Origin: Sciurus carolinensis
Taxonomy: Eukaryota; Chordata; Mammalia; Rodentia; Sciuridae
Length of the DNA stretch: 64,000 nucleotides
Direction: 5' to 3'
Assembly (NCBI RefSeq): GCF_902686445.1
Contig: NW_025920106.1
Location: forward strand, 868,001 to 932,000
The translations under genes were made by a program, and so were the position numbers. The notes under the pieces were generated by a model. That model saw only the letters and a list, made by a program, of their open reading frames with translations. It had not been told where the DNA came from and searched no databases. This document shows positions 7,308 to 60,102 of the stretch, one piece after another; the stretch's first letter is position 1; every line of letters begins with the position of its first letter.

Positions 7308-7919
7308 ATTTTACCCAGGGGAATTCATACTGGAAAGGTGAAGGGGAGCCTGACTCACTTTTCCCTTTGAGTCTGGTGGCTTGCAGAACAGGTCAGGAAT
7401 TTGAACAGATAGGTGATAAACTCAAGGACCAAACCCAAGAAGCCTGGAAAGGCTGTGTCCATGGGCAGCAGAGGGGTGAAGGATTGGTTACCCTGTCCCA
7501 CAATTGGTGACTCCTGGAATCCAGTCTCCCAGCAGAGATAGGGTAAGTGCTGGGCCCTACGTGTTGATCCAGTTTCTCCAGAGCAGTCACCACCCCTGAG
7601 ACCTGATTAGACCTAAGTCCCAGCTGCAGAAACTCCACTCTTACAACTCTGTAGCAGCCATGCCTCAGAGTGCAGTAATCTGGTCTGTGCTGACAGAACT
7701 ACAGCTGACAGGATTTCCCATCCCATCATACCTTTTACTGGTGAGAAGGGAAGCAGAGAATTTTTGAACTCCAACTGGTAACTTGGTGAGCAACACAAAA
7801 AGAGGAAGGTTTAAACAATACTTTACCCTTATGCTCATGCTCAGTACATCATTCAAGAACAAATGGAAAGAAAGACAGTTGGACATAGACACTGAATGAA
7901 AAATGAAAAGGCATGCAGA

Positions 7920-8412
7920 CAAACCACTCCAGACATGGGAACTCACACAAGAGATTTTATTAGGCAGACTAACAGTGCCTGCCCTGAAGAGAGAGAGAGA
8001 GCCTGCAAGAGATAGCATGGTGATGGAGCTTCGCTTAAGTACTTGAATTGCCTGGGCTAAGGATGATCGGGGCAATTGCTGAGCAGTTAAAATTTGCAGT
8101 CTACAGATTAAGCCAATGGGTGCCAAACAAGCTGACAAGTGGACCAATGACTGGCTAGGATAGTAGCTAGGGATGCTGTCATTCCTCCTTGCCTTCCCCC
8201 GCAGGCGTGTTTTGTGTCCAACCACTCAGGAAGGAGCCCCGTGAGGTCCTAGGGTGTGCTGGTTGTAGGCAGCCCAAGGCCCAAGGTTAGAGCCAGACAT
8301 CAAGGCAAACCCAGTGCCTTCCTCCTGCCTGCCACAGCCAGGTGACACCTGGGAGTTTCACGCAGGCCTGCCTTGCTGCATCTGCTTGCCAGGCAGACCA
8401 CTGAGCACTACA
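7920..8412 (-). mobile_element. Candidate solo LTR, minus strand
   Basis: Reversed, the segment reads from 'tgtagtgctcagtggtctgcc' through a GC-richer U3-like body to 'taataaaatctcttgtgtgag' and ends near 'ggtttgtctgca'. This gives TG...CA ends and a polyadenylation signal close to the 3' end. No matching flanking duplication was found, so the boundaries are tentative. The 186-codon minus-strand ORF at 7665-8225 overlaps it and crosses the poly-A signal, so I treat that ORF as chance. A second copy lies at about 9371-9863. Confidence 0.4.
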
Positions 8413-8482
8413 GTGAATATATATTCTGACAATTTTGACCAACTCAGTGGAAACGATGCCTTAATCATTCATTAAGAATTTC

Positions 8483-8484
<2 letters not shown>

Positions 8485-8519
<35 letters not shown>
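8485..8519. repeat. (TG)n microsatellite, first copy
   Basis: A run of TG units inside the duplicated block. The equivalent tract at about 9938-9970 is a few bases shorter, as expected for two alleles. Confidence 0.95.
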
Positions 8520-8520
<1 letters not shown>

Positions 8521-8661
8521 GTGTCAATTGGTTCATGGACATATGTATGTACACATAATTGTTTCTTTTATTCTTTTTTTCTGATGTCCTTTTTTATTGT
8601 TTTATTTCAAGGATGAGTTTTATGAAGTAGAATTACAAGTAGTAAAATTTATTTTTTCTTG

Positions 8662-8761
8662 NNNNNNNNNNNNNNNNNNNNNNNNNNNNNNNNNNNNNNN
8701 NNNNNNNNNNNNNNNNNNNNNNNNNNNNNNNNNNNNNNNNNNNNNNNNNNNNNNNNNNNNN
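8662..8761. other. Assembly gap of 100 N
   Basis: Exactly 100 unresolved bases, the usual placeholder for a gap of unknown size. Any ORF reading through it (8597-8794) is an artefact. Confidence 1.
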
Positions 8762-8762
8762 G

Positions 8763-9935
8763 TTTACCCAGGGGAATTCATACTGGAAAGGTGAAGGGGA
8801 GCCTGACTCACTTTTCCCTTTGAGTCTGGTGGCTTGCAGAACAGGTCAGGAATTTGAACAGATAGGTGATAAACTCAAGGACCAAACCCAAGAAGCCTGG
8901 AAAGGCTGTGTCCATGGGCAGCAGAGGGGTGAAGGATTGGTTACCCTGTCCCACAATTGGTGACTCCTGGAATCCAGTCTCCCAGCAGAGATAGGGTAAG
9001 TGCTGGGCCCTACGTGTTGATCCAGTTTCTCCAGAGCAGTCACCACCCCTGAGACCTGATTAGACCTAAGTCCCAGCTGCAGAAACTCCACTCTTACAAC
9101 TCTGTAGCAGCCATGCCTCAGAGTGCAGTAATCTGGTCTGTGCTGACAGAACTACAGCTGACAGGATTTCCCATCCCATCATACCTTTTACTGGTGAGAA
9201 GGGAAGCAGAGAATTTTTGAACTCCAACTGGTAACTTGGTGAGCAACACAAAAAGAGGAAGGTTTAAACAATACTTTACCCTTATGCTCATGCTCAGTAC
9301 ATCATTCAAGAACAAATGGAAAGAAAGACAGTTGGACATAGACACTGAATGAAAAATGAAAAGGCATGCAGACAAACCACTCCAGACATGGGAACTCACA
9401 CAAGAGATTTTATTAGGCAGACTAACAGTGCCTGCCCTGAAGAGAGAGAGAGAGCCTGCAAGAGATAGCATGGTGATGGAGCTTCGCTTAAGTACTTGAA
9501 TTGCCTGGGCTAAGGATGATCGGGGCAATTGCTGAGCAGTTAAAATTTGCAGTCTACAGATTAAGCCAATGGGTGCCAAACAAGCTGACAAGTGGACCAA
9601 TGACTGGCTAGGATAGTAGCTAGGGATGCTGTCATTCCTCCTTGCCTTCCCCCGCAGGCGTGTTTTGTGTCCAACCGCTCAGGAAGGAGCCCCGTGAGGT
9701 CCTAGGGTGTGCTGGTTGTAGGCAGCCCAAGGCCCAAGGTTAGAGCCAGACATCAAGGCAAACCCAGTGCCTTCCTCCTGCCTGCCACAGCCAGGTGACA
9801 CCTGGGAGTTTCATGCAGGCCTGCCTTGCTGCATCTGCTTGCCAGGCAGACCACTGAGCACTACAGTGAATATATATTCTGACAATTTTGACCAACTCAG
9901 TGGAAACGATGCCTTAATCATTCATTAAGAATTTC

Positions 9936-9971
<36 letters not shown>

Positions 9972-10112
9972 GTGTCAATTGGTTCATGGACATATGTATG
10001 TACACATAATTGTTTCTTTTATTCTTTTTTTCTGATGTCCTTTTTTATTGTTTTATTTCAAGGATGAGTTTTATGAAGTAGAATTACAAGTAGTAAAATT
10101 TATTTTTTCTTG
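8763..10112. repeat. Second copy of the ~1.35-kb duplication
   Basis: Matches 7308-8661 nearly base for base, including the LTR-like segment and the small minus-strand ORFs, which therefore appear twice with identical or almost identical translations. Sequence continues past 10112 ('gggcacaaaggcatc') where the first copy runs into the N gap. Confidence 0.95.
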
Positions 10113-39317: not shown

Positions 39318-42300
39318 GTCCACAAATGGAGGAACTACCATAAAGAAAAATCCACTCAAAGGAGAAACCAAGCAAAGTTAAAAACCAAAAATAAGCCCAA
39401 ATGACTGGGAATACAAATTACATCTCAATAATAACCCTGAACATTGATGGCCTAAACTCATAAATCAAAAGACATAGAATGGCAGAATGGATTAAAAAGA
39501 AAGACCCAACAATATGCTGTCTTCAAGAGACTCATGTCATAGAAAAAGGCATGCACAGACTAAAGGTGAAAGTATGGGAAAAAACCTACTATGCAGATGG
39601 ACTCAGTAAAAAGTGGGGGTTTCCATCCTTATTATAGATAAAGTGGACTTCAAGCCAAAGTTAGTCATAAGGGATAAAGAAGGACATTTCATACTGCTTA
39701 AGGGAACCATAAATCAGGAAGACATAATGATGGTAAATAATTATGCCCCAAGCAGTGGTGCATCCATGTACCTCAAAAATATCCTTCTCAATTCCAGGAA
39801 TCATATACACCACAACACAATAATTTTGGGTGACTTTAACATACCTCTGTCACCACTGGATAGATCTTCCAAACAAAAACCAAAGAAAAAATAGAACTCA
39901 ATAACACAATCAATAACTTAATAGACATACACAGTATATTCCATCCATCAATGAGTGAATTCACTTTTTTCACAGCATCTTCTCTAAAATAGACCATATG
40001 CTATGCCACAAAGCAGCCCTTACTAAATGCAAAAAAAAAAAAAAAAAAAAAACAGAATTACTGCCTTGTGTTCTATCAGATCATAATGGAATGAATTTAG
40101 AAATCAATGACAAAATAGAAAACAGAAATTACTCCAATACGTGGAGAGTAAATAATATGCTATTGAATGAAACATGAATAGCAGAAAATATCAGGGAGGA
40201 GATAAAAAAATTCTTAAAGGTAAATAAGTTTGATGATACAACATATCAAAATCTCTGGGACACTATAAAAGTAGTACTAAGAGGAAAATTTATTGCATGG
40301 AGCACATTCAAGAAAAGAATAAAAAGTCAACAACTTAATGACCTAACATTACAGCTCAAAGCGCTAGAAAGAGAAGAACAGAATAACAGCAAAAGTAGTA
40401 GAAGACTGGAAATAATTAAAATCAGAGCTGAAATCACTAAAATTAAAACAAAAAAATCCAAGAAATTGACAAAACAAAAAGTTGGTTCTTTGAAAAAGTA
40501 AGCAAAATAGACAAAATCTTAGTCACACTAACAAATAGAAGGAGAGAGAAAACTCAAATTACTAAAATTTATGAAGAAAAAGAAAATATCATGACAGACA
40601 CCACTGAGATACATAACATAATGAGAAGCTACTTTGAAAATCTGTATTCCAACAAAATAGAAACTACCAAAGATATTGACAAATTTCTAGAGACATATGC
40701 TCCTCCCAAACTGAACCAGGAGGACATACACAATGTAAACAGATCAATATCAAACAATGAAATAGAAGTCATCAAAAGCCTACCATCCAAGAAAAGCCCA
40801 GGACCAGATGTATTCTCAGCCAAGTTCTACAAGATCTTCAAAGAAGAACCCATTCTAATACTTCTCAAAGTATTGCAGAAAATAGAAAAGGAGGAAACCC
40901 TACCAAACTCATTCTATGAAGCTAGTATCAACCTCATAACCAAACCAGGAAAAGACAGATCAAGGAAAGAAAATTTTAGACAAATATCCTTGATGTGTAT
41001 AGATGCAAAGACCTTTAACAAAATACTGACAAACTGTATCCAAAACCATATTAAGAAAATTGTGCATGACGATCAAGTGGGATTCATCCCTGGAATGCAA
41101 GGATGGTTTCACATCTGTAAATCGATAAAGGTAATCCATTATGTCAATAGACTTAAGGATAAGAATCATAAGGTTATATCAATTGACACAGAAAAAGCAT
41201 TTGACAAAATACAACACTCCTTTATGCTCAAAACACTAGAAAAAATAGGGATAGTAGGAACATACCTGAACATTGTAAAGGCTATTTATGCTAAGCCCAT
41301 GGGCAACATCATTCTTAATGGAGAAAAACTGAAACCATTCCCTTTAAAAATGGGCAAAAGACAGGGATGTCCTCTTTCACCACTTCTATTCAACATTGTC
41401 CTTCAAACTCTAGCCAGAGCAATTAGGCACACTAAAGAAATTAAAGGGATATGAATAGGAAAAGAGGAACTTAAGCTGTCACTATTTGCTGATGACATGA
41501 TTCTATATTTAGAGGATCCAAAAATGTCCTCCAGAAAACTTCTAGACCTCATCAATGAATTCAGCAAAATAGTCAGCTATAAAATCAACACACATAAATC
41601 TAAAGCATTTTTATACACAAGCAATGAAACATCTAAAAGGGAAATGAGGAAAGCAACTCCATTTGCAATAGCCTCAAAAAAAATAAAATAAAATACTTGG
41701 GAGTCAATCTAACCAAAGAGGTAAAAGATCTCTACAATGAAAACTACAAAACATTGCAGAAAGAAATGGAGAAAGATCTTAGAAGATGGAAAGATCACCC
41801 ATGTTCTTGGATAGGCAGAATTAATATTGTCAAAATGGCCAAAATTCCAAAGGCACTAAACAGATTTAATGCAATTCCAATTAAAATTCCTATGACATTT
41901 CTCATGGAAACAGAAAAAGCAATCATGAAATTCATCTTGAAGAACGAAAGACCCAGAATAGCAAAGTAATCCTGGGCAGGAAGAGTGATGCTTGAGGTTT
42001 CACTATACAAGATCTTAATATCTACTATAGGGCAATAGTAACAAAAATGGCATGGTATTGGTACCAAAATAGACAGGTAGACCAATGGTACAGTTTAGAA
42101 GACACAGAGACATACCCACATAAGTACAGTAACCTCATACTAGACAAGGGTGCCAAAAACTTACAATGGAGAAAAGATAGCCTCTTCAACAAATGGTGCT
42201 ATGAAACTGGAAATCCATATGCAATAAAATGAAACTAAACCCCTATCTCTCACACTGTACAAAACTCAATTCAAAATGGATCAAGAATCTTGGAATTAGA

Positions 42301-51643: not shown

Positions 51644-52438
51644 ATGATCCAAACAAATATAGATTCAATATTAATAGAATCCAATGAAAGTATGGTAGAA
51701 GAAATGTCAGAAAAGGACTTCAGATTATACATGATTCAGGTGATTTGTAAAGTAAAGGATGAGATAAGAGGGCAAATGCAGGCAATGAATGATAATACCA
51801 ATAAGTTGAAAGAGCACCTGCAGGAAGCAAAAGATCATTTCAACAAAGAGATAGAGATTCCCCCCCCAAAAATAAAAAAAAACCAAATGGAAATTCTTGA
51901 AATGAAGGAAACAATAAACCAAATAAAAAAACTCAATGGAAAGCATCACCAAAAGATTAGTCCACTTGGAAGACAGAACCTCTCACAATGAAGACAAAAT
52001 ATTTAATCTTGAAAATAAAGTTGCCCAAACAGAGAAGATGGTAAGAAATCATGAACAGAATCTCCAAGAACTATGGGACATCATGAAAAGACCAAATTTA
52101 ATAATTACTGGGATTGAGGAAGGCACAGAGATACAAATGAAAGGAATGAACAGCCTATTCAATGAAGTAATATTAGAAAATTTTCCAAACCTGAAGAATG
52201 AAATGGAAAATCAAATACAATAGGCTTAAAGAACACCAAATGCACAAAATCACAACAGATCCACACCAAGGCACAGTTTAATGAAAATGCCTAACATCCA
52301 AATAAAGATAGGATTGTGAAGGCCGTGAGAAAAAAACATTATTTTATATATAGGGGGAGACCAATACGGATAGCAGTTGACTTCTCAGTCCAGACTCTAA
52401 AAGCTAGAAGGGCCTGGAACACGTATTTCAAGCTCTGA
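51644..52438 (+). pseudogene. L1-A ORF1 (RNA-binding protein), broken
   Basis: The N-terminal part (51644-51991) covers the coiled coil. A frame change near 51936-51991 leads to the central RNA-recognition part ('IMKRPNLIITGI'). A TAG at 52221-52223 replaces the codon that reads GAG in the related copy at 58.7 kb. The C-terminal end 'ARRAWN..FQAL' is recognisable at about 52405-52438. ORF1p normally forms trimers that coat L1 RNA; this copy cannot. Confidence 0.85.
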
Positions 52439-52878
52439 AAGAACATGGTTGCCAATCAAGAATCCTATACCCAGCAAAACTAACCTTCAGATTTGAAGAT
52501 GAAATAAAATCCTTCCATGATAAACAAAAGTTAAAAGAATTTACCAATAGAAAGCCTGCACTACACAATGTTCTCAACAAAATATTCCATGAGGAGGAAA
52601 TGAAAAACAACAATGTAGATCAGCAAAGGGAGGAACTATCTTAGAAAAAACCACTCAAAGGAGAAACCAAGCCAACTTAAAAACCAAAAATAAGTCAAAT
52701 GACTGGGAATAAAAATTATATCTCAATAATAACTCTGAATGCTAATTGCCTAAACTCATCAATCAAAACACATAGACTGGCAGAATGGATTAAAAAGGAA
52801 GACTCAACAATATGCTGCCTTCAAGAGATTCATCTCATAGTAAAAGACATCCACAGACTAAAGGTGAAAGAATTGGAA

Positions 52879-52891
52879 AAAACCTACCATG
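52879..52891 (+). repeat. Target-site duplication, left copy
   Basis: 'aaaacctaccatg'. The right copy 'aaaatctaccatg' is at 54630-54642. The uninterrupted L1 sequence in the other copies reads 'acctaccatgcacatgg', confirming the insertion point. Confidence 0.9.
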
Positions 52892-53261
52892 TGATTCAGC
52901 ACTAGGATTCACTCTCATTTTCTGTAGTCCTCGGTTGCTCTGCTGTGGGGGTGCTGAAGATCCCCAGGGAGCAGACCTGGTTTTTGAGCACCAGGAAATG
53001 GTCCAAAAAATAGGAAAGATGCTGCCCTGAATGACAGCAAGCAGCTTTAACCAAAAAGTTTCCAGAAGTAGACTTTATCCTATCAAATCCTGGCCATCTG
53101 GTTTATTTTAACAGATAGCAGATGGGGACCTGGTTTGCTCTGCTGTTCAGGTGCAGGAAGATCTATGGGGAGAAAACTGAGACCTGCAAAAAGCCAATAA
53201 ATGTGTCTGTGAAGACATTTTGGTCTTTGGCCTGTGCCACTCACCCATTTCTTAGAATGAT

Positions 53262-53750
53262 TGACCTAGAGTTATGAGGGTTGAAATGTGGCAGACATGT
53301 GGAAATGCAGAAAATAGTATGCATGATATCTTGTATGCAGCTCATAAATGCCTTTGTTAAATCTCCTGATGATTCAGACATCAGGCTTTGAATCAGAAAT
53401 AAATTTATGCATTGTGGATTGAAAGAAATATTGCCAAATTTAAAGCATATTAAGAATGATGGCCTGGATATCCAACTTAAAGCATTTGATAACCATAAGG
53501 AAGATGATTTTGTTTGAGTTCTTTCATCACCTTGAAGATATAAGAGTTGAGCTTGATGAAGCATCTGATGTTTACAACATGGTGTGGAACACAGTTAAGG
53601 AAACAAGAGCATAGACAACAGTACTTCAAATTAATTGATGAGTGTGTATCACAGACTGTGTTGCATAAAGATGGAATGAATCCAGATTTTACATATAAAA
53701 ATGATTAGATTTAGATTTAAGTCAAATTGTAGGATGCACAATTGCCAATT
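53262..53750 (+). pseudogene. DIAPH3: DIAPH3-like formin segment (diaphanous inhibitory/dimerisation region)
   Basis: Translation over three frames gives 'CMQLINAFVKSPDDSD', 'EILPNLKHIKNDGLDIQLK', 'ELDEASDVYNMVWNTVK', 'QQYFKLIDECVSQTVLHKDG' and 'LDLDLSQIV', the ordered sequence of the N-terminal regulatory region of diaphanous formins. It is closest to DIAPH3 as I know it. Between 'KETRA' and 'QQYFKLIDEC' about 21 residues expected in DIAPH3 are absent at a clean point, which looks like a skipped exon and supports a spliced RNA origin. Several stops and single-base shifts make it non-coding. DIAPH2 is the main alternative. Confidence 0.7.
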
Positions 53751-54311
53751 TGGGTGCTGGAGAGATTGGTCAAGGCTTCAACAGAGACACCAAAACAGGA
53801 AGAAGATGAGGAGGCTTCTCCCGCTGATGGTGCTGGCAATATCTCACCAAGTTAATGGAGGAGACTCACGTGAACTATGGGGGATAGTAAATACGTGGTC
53901 CTATCCTATACCACTTACCAACTCCTCTATTCTATATCCTCCTATTTTTACAATTGGCCACATTTCTTTAGTCTGCTGTTCAATGGGGAAAAGAATGTTT
54001 TGGGTATTTGTCCGTGGAAGGTTTATTGTGTGTTGTATCTGTTCTGTGCATATAGTGTTTATACAAAATGCATATACATCGGCACAGAGAAACAGCCATT
54101 ATTTGCCAAGCTCTTGTTGCAATTGATGCTGGCTCATTCCCCCAAGTCCGGTTAAATATTCTGGACCGGTAGTCAAAGATGGGTAAGATTGATGGGGAGC
54201 ACATACCAACCTAAGGAAGGAAATGAGGGCTAGAGCCTCATTGTCCAATGATGGGTAAGGATGTTGTTCTGCCGTGGACAACCTGAGACAGGCACATTCT
54301 CTTTTATAAAC

Positions 54312-54623
54312 AGAAAGGGGGAAATGTGGCGGGCAAGACCCGGGGCCCAAGGTTACGCCAAATGCATCCAAAATGGTGACTGGCAGAGAGCCAAAGGGTG
54401 TGCTGAATGCACCTTGAGAAAAACAGGAAACGTTTACCATTGGCTGTATGATAATTAGTTCAGCCGCCTAGCATGTGGACAGATATATCTTACATGTATG
54501 CTTGAGCTTGTGATCACTTGACTTTTAATAGGACTGGATGGACATATCTGATTATAATTGCATATGCATGAGACTGCTTATATATTGAGGGTGTTATCAG
54601 AATAAAGTGGAAGCTGCTTCATG
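54312..54623 (+). repeat. ERV polypurine tract and partial LTR (U3-R) within the retrocopy
   Basis: The purine tract is followed by 'tgtggcgggcaagacccgg', a new LTR start, a CpG-containing U3 and AATAAA at 54601-54606. It ends about 17 bases later at a poly-A tract and not in a U5, so it derives from a polyadenylated RNA. It is unrelated to the LTRs at 35.5 and 45.6 kb. Confidence 0.7.
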
Positions 54624-54629
54624 AAAAAA

Positions 54630-55836
54630 AAAATCTACCATGCACATGGACTCAGTAATAAAGTGAGGGTTTCCATCCTTAGACAAAGTGGACTTCAAGC
54701 TAAAGATAATCAGAAGGGAAAAAGAAGGACATTTCATACTGCTTAAGGGAACCATAAATCAGGAAGACATAATGAAAGTAATTATTTATGCCTCAAACAA
54801 TGGTACATCCCTGTACATCAAAAAATTCCTTCTCAATTTCAGAAATCACATAGACCACAACACAATAATTCTGGTTGACTTTAATGCTCCGCTGTCACCA
54901 CTAGATACGTCTTCCAAACAAAAACCAACCAAAGAAACCATAGAACTCAATAACACAATCAATAGCCTAGACTTAATAGACATATAAAGAATATTCCATC
55001 CATCAATGAGCAGATTCACTTTCTTCTCAGCAGCACATGGAATCTTCTCGAAAATAGACCATATGTTATGCCACAAAGCAGCCCTTAGGGAATGCGAAAA
55101 TACAGAGATACTGCCTTGTGTTCTATCAGATCATAATGGACTGACAATAGAAATCAATGACAAAATAAAAAACAGAAATTACTTCAACACCTGAAGACTA
55201 AATAATATGCTATTGAATAAAACATGGATAGCAAAATCATCAGGGAGGAGATACAAAAAATTCTTAGAGGTCAATGAGAATGATGACACAACATATCAAA
55301 ATCTCTGGGACACTATGAAAGTGGTACTAAGAGGAAAATTCTTTGCATGGAGCACATTCCAGAAAAGAATGAAAAGTCAACAATTAAATAACCTAACATT
55401 ACAGCTCAAAGCCCTAGAAAAACAAGAACAGAAAAACAGAAAAAGTAGTAGAAGACAGGAAATAATTAAAATCAGAGCTGAAATCAATTAAATTGAAACA
55501 AAAAAAAAACAATTCAAAAAATTGACAACAAAAAAGTTGGTTCTTTGAAAAAGTAAACAAAATAGACAAACCCTTACCATACTAACAAACAGGAGACAGA
55601 AAACTCAAATTAATAAAAAATTTATGAGAAAGGAAATATCACAACAGACACCGCTGAGATACAGAACATAATGGGAAGCTATTTTGAAAATCTGTATTCC
55701 AACAAAATAGAAATGACCGAATATATTGACAAATTTCTACAAACATATGCTCCTCCCAAACTGAACCAGGAGGATAATACACAATTTAAACAGATTAATA
55801 TCAAGCAATGAAATAGAAGAAGCCATTAAAAATCTA
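54630..55836 (+). mobile_element. L1-A, part 2: ORF2 endonuclease to RT N-terminal region
   Basis: Resumes exactly where part 1 stopped ('accatgcacatggactcag') and continues through endonuclease blocks (54688-54987 with 'LVDFNAPLSP'; 55006-55194 with 'FFSAAHG' and 'LSDHNG') to 'gaagccattaaaaatcta' (to 55836). Several stops and shifts are present. The catalytic DFN and SDH triplets survive. Confidence 0.9.
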
Positions 55837-59205: not shown

Positions 59206-60102
59206 ATGAACCAAATGACTGGGAATACAAATCATATCTCAATAATAACCCTGAATGTTAATGGCCTGAATTCATCAATCAAAAGACATAGACTGGTGGA
59301 TTGGATTAAAAAGAAAGATCCAACAATATGTTGCCTGCAAGAGACTCACCTCATAGAAAGAGATACCCATAGACTAAATGTGAAAGGATGGGGAAAAACA
59401 TACCATGCACATGGACTCAGCAAAAAAGCTGGTATATCCATCCTCATTTCAGATAATGTGGACTTCAAGCCAATGTCAGTCAGAAGGGATAAGGAAGGAC
59501 ATTTCATACTGCTTAAAGGAAGCATAAATCAGGAAGATATAACAATCATAAACATCTATGCCCCAAACAGTGGCTCATCCATGTATGTTAAACAAATCCT
59601 TCTCAATTTTAGAAACCAAAGAGACCATAACACAATAATACTAGGTGATTTTAACATGCCTCTCTCACCACTGGACAGATCTTCCAAACAAAAATTGAAC
59701 AAAGAAACCATAGATCTCAATAACACAACCAATAATTTCGACCTATCAAACATTTATAGAATATACCATCCAACCAAGAGTGAATACACTTTCTTCTCAG
59801 CAGCACATGGATCCTTCTCTAAAATAGACCATATATTATGCCACAAAGCTAATGTCAGCAAATACAAGAAGATAGAGACACTACCTTGTATTCTATCAGA
59901 TCATAATGGATTGAAGTTAGAAATAAATGAAAGAGTAAAAAACAGAAACCAATCCAACACCTGCAGATTAAACAATATGCTATTATATGTTGAATGGATA
60001 ACAGAAGATATTAGGAAGAAAATTAAAAAATTCTTAGAGGTAAACGAGAACAAAGAAACATCATATCAAAATCTCTGGGACACTATGAAAGCAGTACTTT
60101 GA
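59206..60102 (+). pseudogene. L1-C ORF2 N-terminal part with complete endonuclease domain
   Basis: 298 open codons containing every motif of the APE-type endonuclease in order: 'TLNVNGLN', 'CLQETHL', 'NIYAPN', 'LGDFNMP', 'FFSAAHGSFSKIDHIL' and 'ILSDHNGL'. These supply the Asn, Glu, Asp-Asn and Ser-Asp-His residues that nick target DNA at TT/AAAA-type sites. A TGA at 60100-60102, where related copies read AGA, ends the frame before the RT. Confidence 0.9.

Follow-up and report, generated by a model that had tools for sequence, protein, structure and literature searches.

A short target duplication, an AATAAA signal and a poly-A tract together form the signature of L1 target-primed reverse transcription. 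The processed pseudogenes of HERV-W carry such features, being described as L1-mobilised transcripts of an endogenous retrovirus (ERV) that end in a partial LTR at the poly-A site, followed by poly-A, with a duplication of 5-15 bp (PMC5537654). ERVs lying in introns in sense orientation are documented to disrupt genes through splicing and LTR polyadenylation (PMC1794541), and L1 chimeras are reported to arise by splicing, ligation or template switching (PMC13174262).

Here we describe an insert at positions 52892-54629 of a 64-kb stretch of DNA, referred to below as the window, whose numbering is used throughout; the parts of the insert are given on the plus strand. The best reading of this insert, to which we give a probability of about 0.6, is that of an L1-retroposed copy of a spliced fusion RNA joining the formin gene DIAPH3 to an ERV.

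The outer borders are sharply defined by the surrounding L1. When the 200 bases on each side of the insert are joined, they align in one piece to 39398-39797 of the window (87.8%), and the joined flanks also align unbroken to a second L1 copy at 59212-59612 (81.8%). Because the joined flanks are unbroken in two other L1 copies of the window, both of which represent the empty site without the insert, 52892-54629 is a single insert; the same alignments therefore place the break between 52891 and 54643, with one copy of the duplication removed. The frame of the 5' flank gives a weak Pfam match to PF03372 (E 2e-4, 21.7 bits vs a cut-off of 24.5), which places the insert in the endonuclease-coding part of an L1. 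The target duplication measures 13 bp with one mismatch, its 5' copy, AAAACCTACCATG (52879-52891), being the meeting point of the joined flanks and its 3' copy being AAAATCTACCATG (54630-54642). An AATAAA at 54601-54606 stands 17 bases 5' of a run of ten A (54624-54633), which is partly common to the 3' duplication copy, the poly-A run and that copy merging within 54624-54642. A short target duplication and a poly-A tail after a poly-A signal, by which L1-mediated processed pseudogenes are recognised, are both found. In these respects the preliminary description, which had reported an insert inside an L1, a 13-bp duplication, an AATAAA and a poly-A tract, is confirmed. Further copies of the insert were searched for within the 64-kb window and none was seen, the only two matches being of chance size (16 and 20 bases). 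Elsewhere in the window, two stretches of about 1.35 kb that are 99.7% identical flank roughly 100 N at 7310-10112; rather than a biological duplication, this is most likely one sequence that the assembly placed on either side of a gap.

The central part of the insert, at 53327-53732, carries stops and frameshifts and, judged from its sequence likeness, is a broken coding sequence for the FH3 domain of a diaphanous formin, devoid of introns; its 5' edge is uncertain by a few bases. The open pieces that gave matches lie between 53278 and 53705. Three of the five pieces that touch the formin stretch are matched by Pfam Drf_FH3 (PF06367), with E-values of 1e-4, 2.7e-11 and 4e-8, two of the scores (44.1 and 33.7 bits) lying above the curated cut-off of 27 and one (22.6) below it. 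DIAPH1 chains match formin pieces in the PDB search. Of the two pieces that Pfam left unmatched, that at 53444-53611 is half in another frame and is matched by DIAPH1 chains through its second half alone (E 0.006), and that straddling the downstream junction (53705-53806) gave no match. Joined across one stop and one frameshift, the formin pieces are 76-79% identical to four proteins translated from short public contigs (four of four candidates). A frameshift-aware alignment to P0001 reaches a score of 382, is strong from about 53330 to 53611, where it ends, and runs through the formin codons of the window uninterrupted by introns; a search for relatives of P0001 in public genome contigs matched 28 stretches, none of which was confirmed. 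The regulatory-domain codons without introns that had been noted at the outset are thus upheld, as codons of a formin FH3 domain, by PF06367 and the DIAPH1 chains. The name DIAPH3, as against DIAPH1 or DIAPH2, is our assumption and that of the preliminary description, the search results not separating DIAPH3 from DIAPH2; the last codons, up to ...GTAG at 53732, are likewise presumed to be those of DIAPH3.

By hand count, 20 codons of P0001 lack a counterpart in the window after 53611; the two sequences meet again at T-V-L-Q-I-N, and the reading resumes in another frame with RQQYFKLIDECVSQ, which is matched by DIAPH1 chains. A loss of about 21 residues had been attributed to a skipped exon. The gap is real, at 20 codons, but the bases left at 53611 give no clean consensus exon join, an exon ending in AG needing two extra bases, and the loss may represent either a skipped exon or a simple deletion.

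Upstream of the formin stretch lie 435 bp (52892-53326) that had been described as an unexplained first part of 370 bp; still without a match, this part is longer than first stated, since the formin likeness starts at about 53327. Formin likeness 5' of that position was rejected: when the first 27 residues of P0001 were aligned, with frameshifts allowed, to the 150 bases before it, the score was 21, and 100 single-base shuffles gave 18.5 on average and 31 at most; the weak Pfam match (22.6 bits) and the full P0001 alignment extend upstream to about 53295-53302, with poor agreement. The 435 bp contain two degenerate copies of a unit of about 80 bp (52929-53011 and 53129-53202, spacing 200); this internal duplication scores 51, and 300 single-base shuffles reach 30 at most. 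As for an origin of this part as an LTR or ERV copy, its likeness to the ERV/LTR part is no higher than chance: the score is 34, and of 300 single-base shuffles (mean 26.9, maximum 45) 15 reach that value. No match was returned by Rfam over 52000-55500, no tRNA was found in the 64-kb window, and the sole candidate (n=1) for coding potential or a known RNA in the 5' part did not score. The part also contains one AATAAA, at 53196, evidently not used as a poly-A signal.

Downstream, the segment at 53733-54324 is of retroviral character and lies 3' of a putative splice acceptor. An open frame runs from the ATG at 53806 to 54126, and the open frame 53680-54126 leads to two proteins of short public contigs, P0005 (80% identical) and P0006 (78%; alignment A2), both of which end where the window frame ends. 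A purine tract at 54312-54324 is directly followed by an LTR that begins with TG at 54325 and is partial, running from its 5' border as far as the poly-A site that it carries (54325-54623). This succession, already part of the preliminary description, is directly visible, but the env-like identity given there to the open frame is without backing from any profile: Pfam returned nothing for the frame, neither of its two PDB matches (E 1.1 and 1.5) has E<1, and the label is weakly suggested by the position before the purine tract and by a signal-peptide-like start. In viral contigs, the 21-base pattern of purine tract and LTR found no relatives, the env-like frame gave two stretches that matched a pattern, and alignment A2 gave 100 stretches, none of the latter two sets being confirmed. 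Two GATGGGTAAG stretches, splice-donor-like and 72 bp apart, were also observed before the purine tract, at 54182 and 54254.

The formin stretch runs directly into the retroviral segment at 53732/53733, and the likeness of P0005 and P0006 to the window begins at the codon 53731-53733. Before the junction both proteins, the starts of which were chosen by a gene caller, hold just four residues, M-F-S-H, all different from those of the window; their back-translation (TTY-TCN/AGY-CAY-AGR) would allow a 3' splice site here, with its AG ending at the junction. On the formin side, the unlabelled translated contig P0003 has F-V-T-L-I-L directly before D-V-C-I-D-Q-A-K, the former being compatible with an intron-like, pyrimidine-rich tract ending in AG and the latter presumably continuing the DIAPH3 sequence beyond the residues at the window junction; the formin reading of the window would stop one base into the same D codon, and P0003 would have the start of an exon at that base. 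The first 34 residues of P0003 have no PDB match up to E 10. That the formin part ends at an exon end can be proposed less firmly, from this one contig and a partly presumed assignment; should the assignment be right, the junction would coincide precisely with an exon end on the formin side and with an acceptor on the ERV side. Furthermore, the FH3 match of P0003 starts next to V-A-C-M-Q, where the formin likeness of the window begins. As an observation on P0003 itself, its D-V-C-I-D-Q-A-K ... K-K stretch is joined directly to the V-A-C-M-Q ... stretch, an order that we take to be downstream formin before upstream formin; back-splicing into a circular RNA, or rearrangement of a pseudogene, gives such an order.

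If the insert is a copy of a spliced fusion RNA, an ERV would have been located in sense orientation within an intron of the host DIAPH3 gene, and the primary transcript of the gene would have been spliced from a DIAPH3 exon to an ERV splice acceptor upstream of the env-like frame. The fusion RNA, of which the first 435 bp would represent an upstream exon, would then have received its 3' end by cleavage and polyadenylation in the 3' LTR of the retrovirus, and L1 proteins would have used target-primed reverse transcription to place a copy of it in the ORF2 region of an older L1, where the inserted copy would have decayed.

The same join could also be produced without splicing. In fact, three bases, TAG, are common to the formin end and to the presumed ERV acceptor if the codon there is CAT, and since TAG is possibly common to both sides, a template switch at this microhomology gives the same result. 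Such a switch, possible at this join, is part of the LTR-mediated retroposition described by Tan et al. (2016, as told in PMC5408686), which would have packaged formin mRNA with retroviral RNA and joined the two in retroviral reverse transcription, L1 having later mobilised a transcript of the chimeric provirus. This origin, under which the first 435 bp would be the leader of a retrovirus, appears unlikely: the edges of the formin part coincide with possible exon borders, a coincidence not needed for template switching, and the first part resembles the ERV/LTR sequence no more than shuffled bases do.

A jump of the L1 reverse transcriptase from the retroviral RNA to formin RNA, and perhaps on to a third RNA, within one insertion is likewise improbable. 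Template switching and RNA ligation are both documented as sources of L1 chimeras with other RNAs (PMC13174262), and the three-part structure fits serial jumps, but the enzyme would have had to hit both a possible splice acceptor and a possible exon end by chance.

Very unlikely, in turn, is a capture of formin exons inside the retroviral transcription unit, with the first 435 bp as the leader of that same retrovirus. Acutely transforming retroviruses transduce oncogenes, which offers a parallel for a formin capture, and if this were true the insert would be the L1 copy of a transcript from an ERV carrying a transduced fragment of a gene for a cytoskeletal regulator.

Finally, two or three independent insertions side by side by chance, as might be imagined in a repeat-rich window with several L1 copies, are highly improbable and largely rejected: one outer duplication encloses all the parts, and neither an internal poly-A tract nor exact inner target duplications, which the preliminary description had named as the marks of two insertions, were found. 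Within the insert, A-runs of at least 6 are limited to a single run of 6, at 53005 in the first part, and exact repeats of at least 8 bp that would pair the inner junctions with other part edges are absent.

Taken as a copy of a spliced DIAPH3-ERV fusion RNA, the insert suggests that an ERV once diverted the transcript of a host gene in the germ line. A fusion RNA is short-lived, but a retrocopy of this kind preserves it and marks the acceptor and the poly-A site that were used; it points to a further route by which host exons can be combined with retroviral pieces, each step of which is already documented. The insert itself is a dead copy, with stops and frameshifts in its formin part and no sign of function.

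With processed pseudogenes made by L1 the insert shares a coding stretch uninterrupted by introns, poly-A, a 13-bp duplication and an A-rich target; it differs from them in using the poly-A site of a retroviral LTR and in being retroviral over about half of its length. The likeness to the HERV-W processed pseudogenes, as these are described in PMC5537654, lies in the partial 3' LTR cut at the poly-A site and followed by poly-A and a duplication. In contrast to those copies, the insert has no recognisable R-U5 of the same LTR at its 5' end and has a host-gene stretch upstream of the env-like part; its 3' side fits U3-R, its 5' part has no ERV/LTR likeness above chance, and a 5' truncation is possible. 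LTR-mediated chimeric retrocopies, in the account of Tan et al. (2016) given in PMC5408686, also fuse a piece of host mRNA to LTR-element sequence, whereas the insert has outer borders of L1 type and joins at possible exon borders. Gene-ERV fusion transcripts, in the form described in PMC1794541, link a host exon to an ERV acceptor and terminate in an LTR, an arrangement that the insert probably shares; the insert, unlike them, is known as a fossil retrocopy alone and not as RNA. On the favoured reading the insert combines steps that have each been documented, namely the diversion of a transcript by an intronic ERV, the L1 copying of RNAs that end at an LTR poly-A site, and the formation of L1 chimeras.
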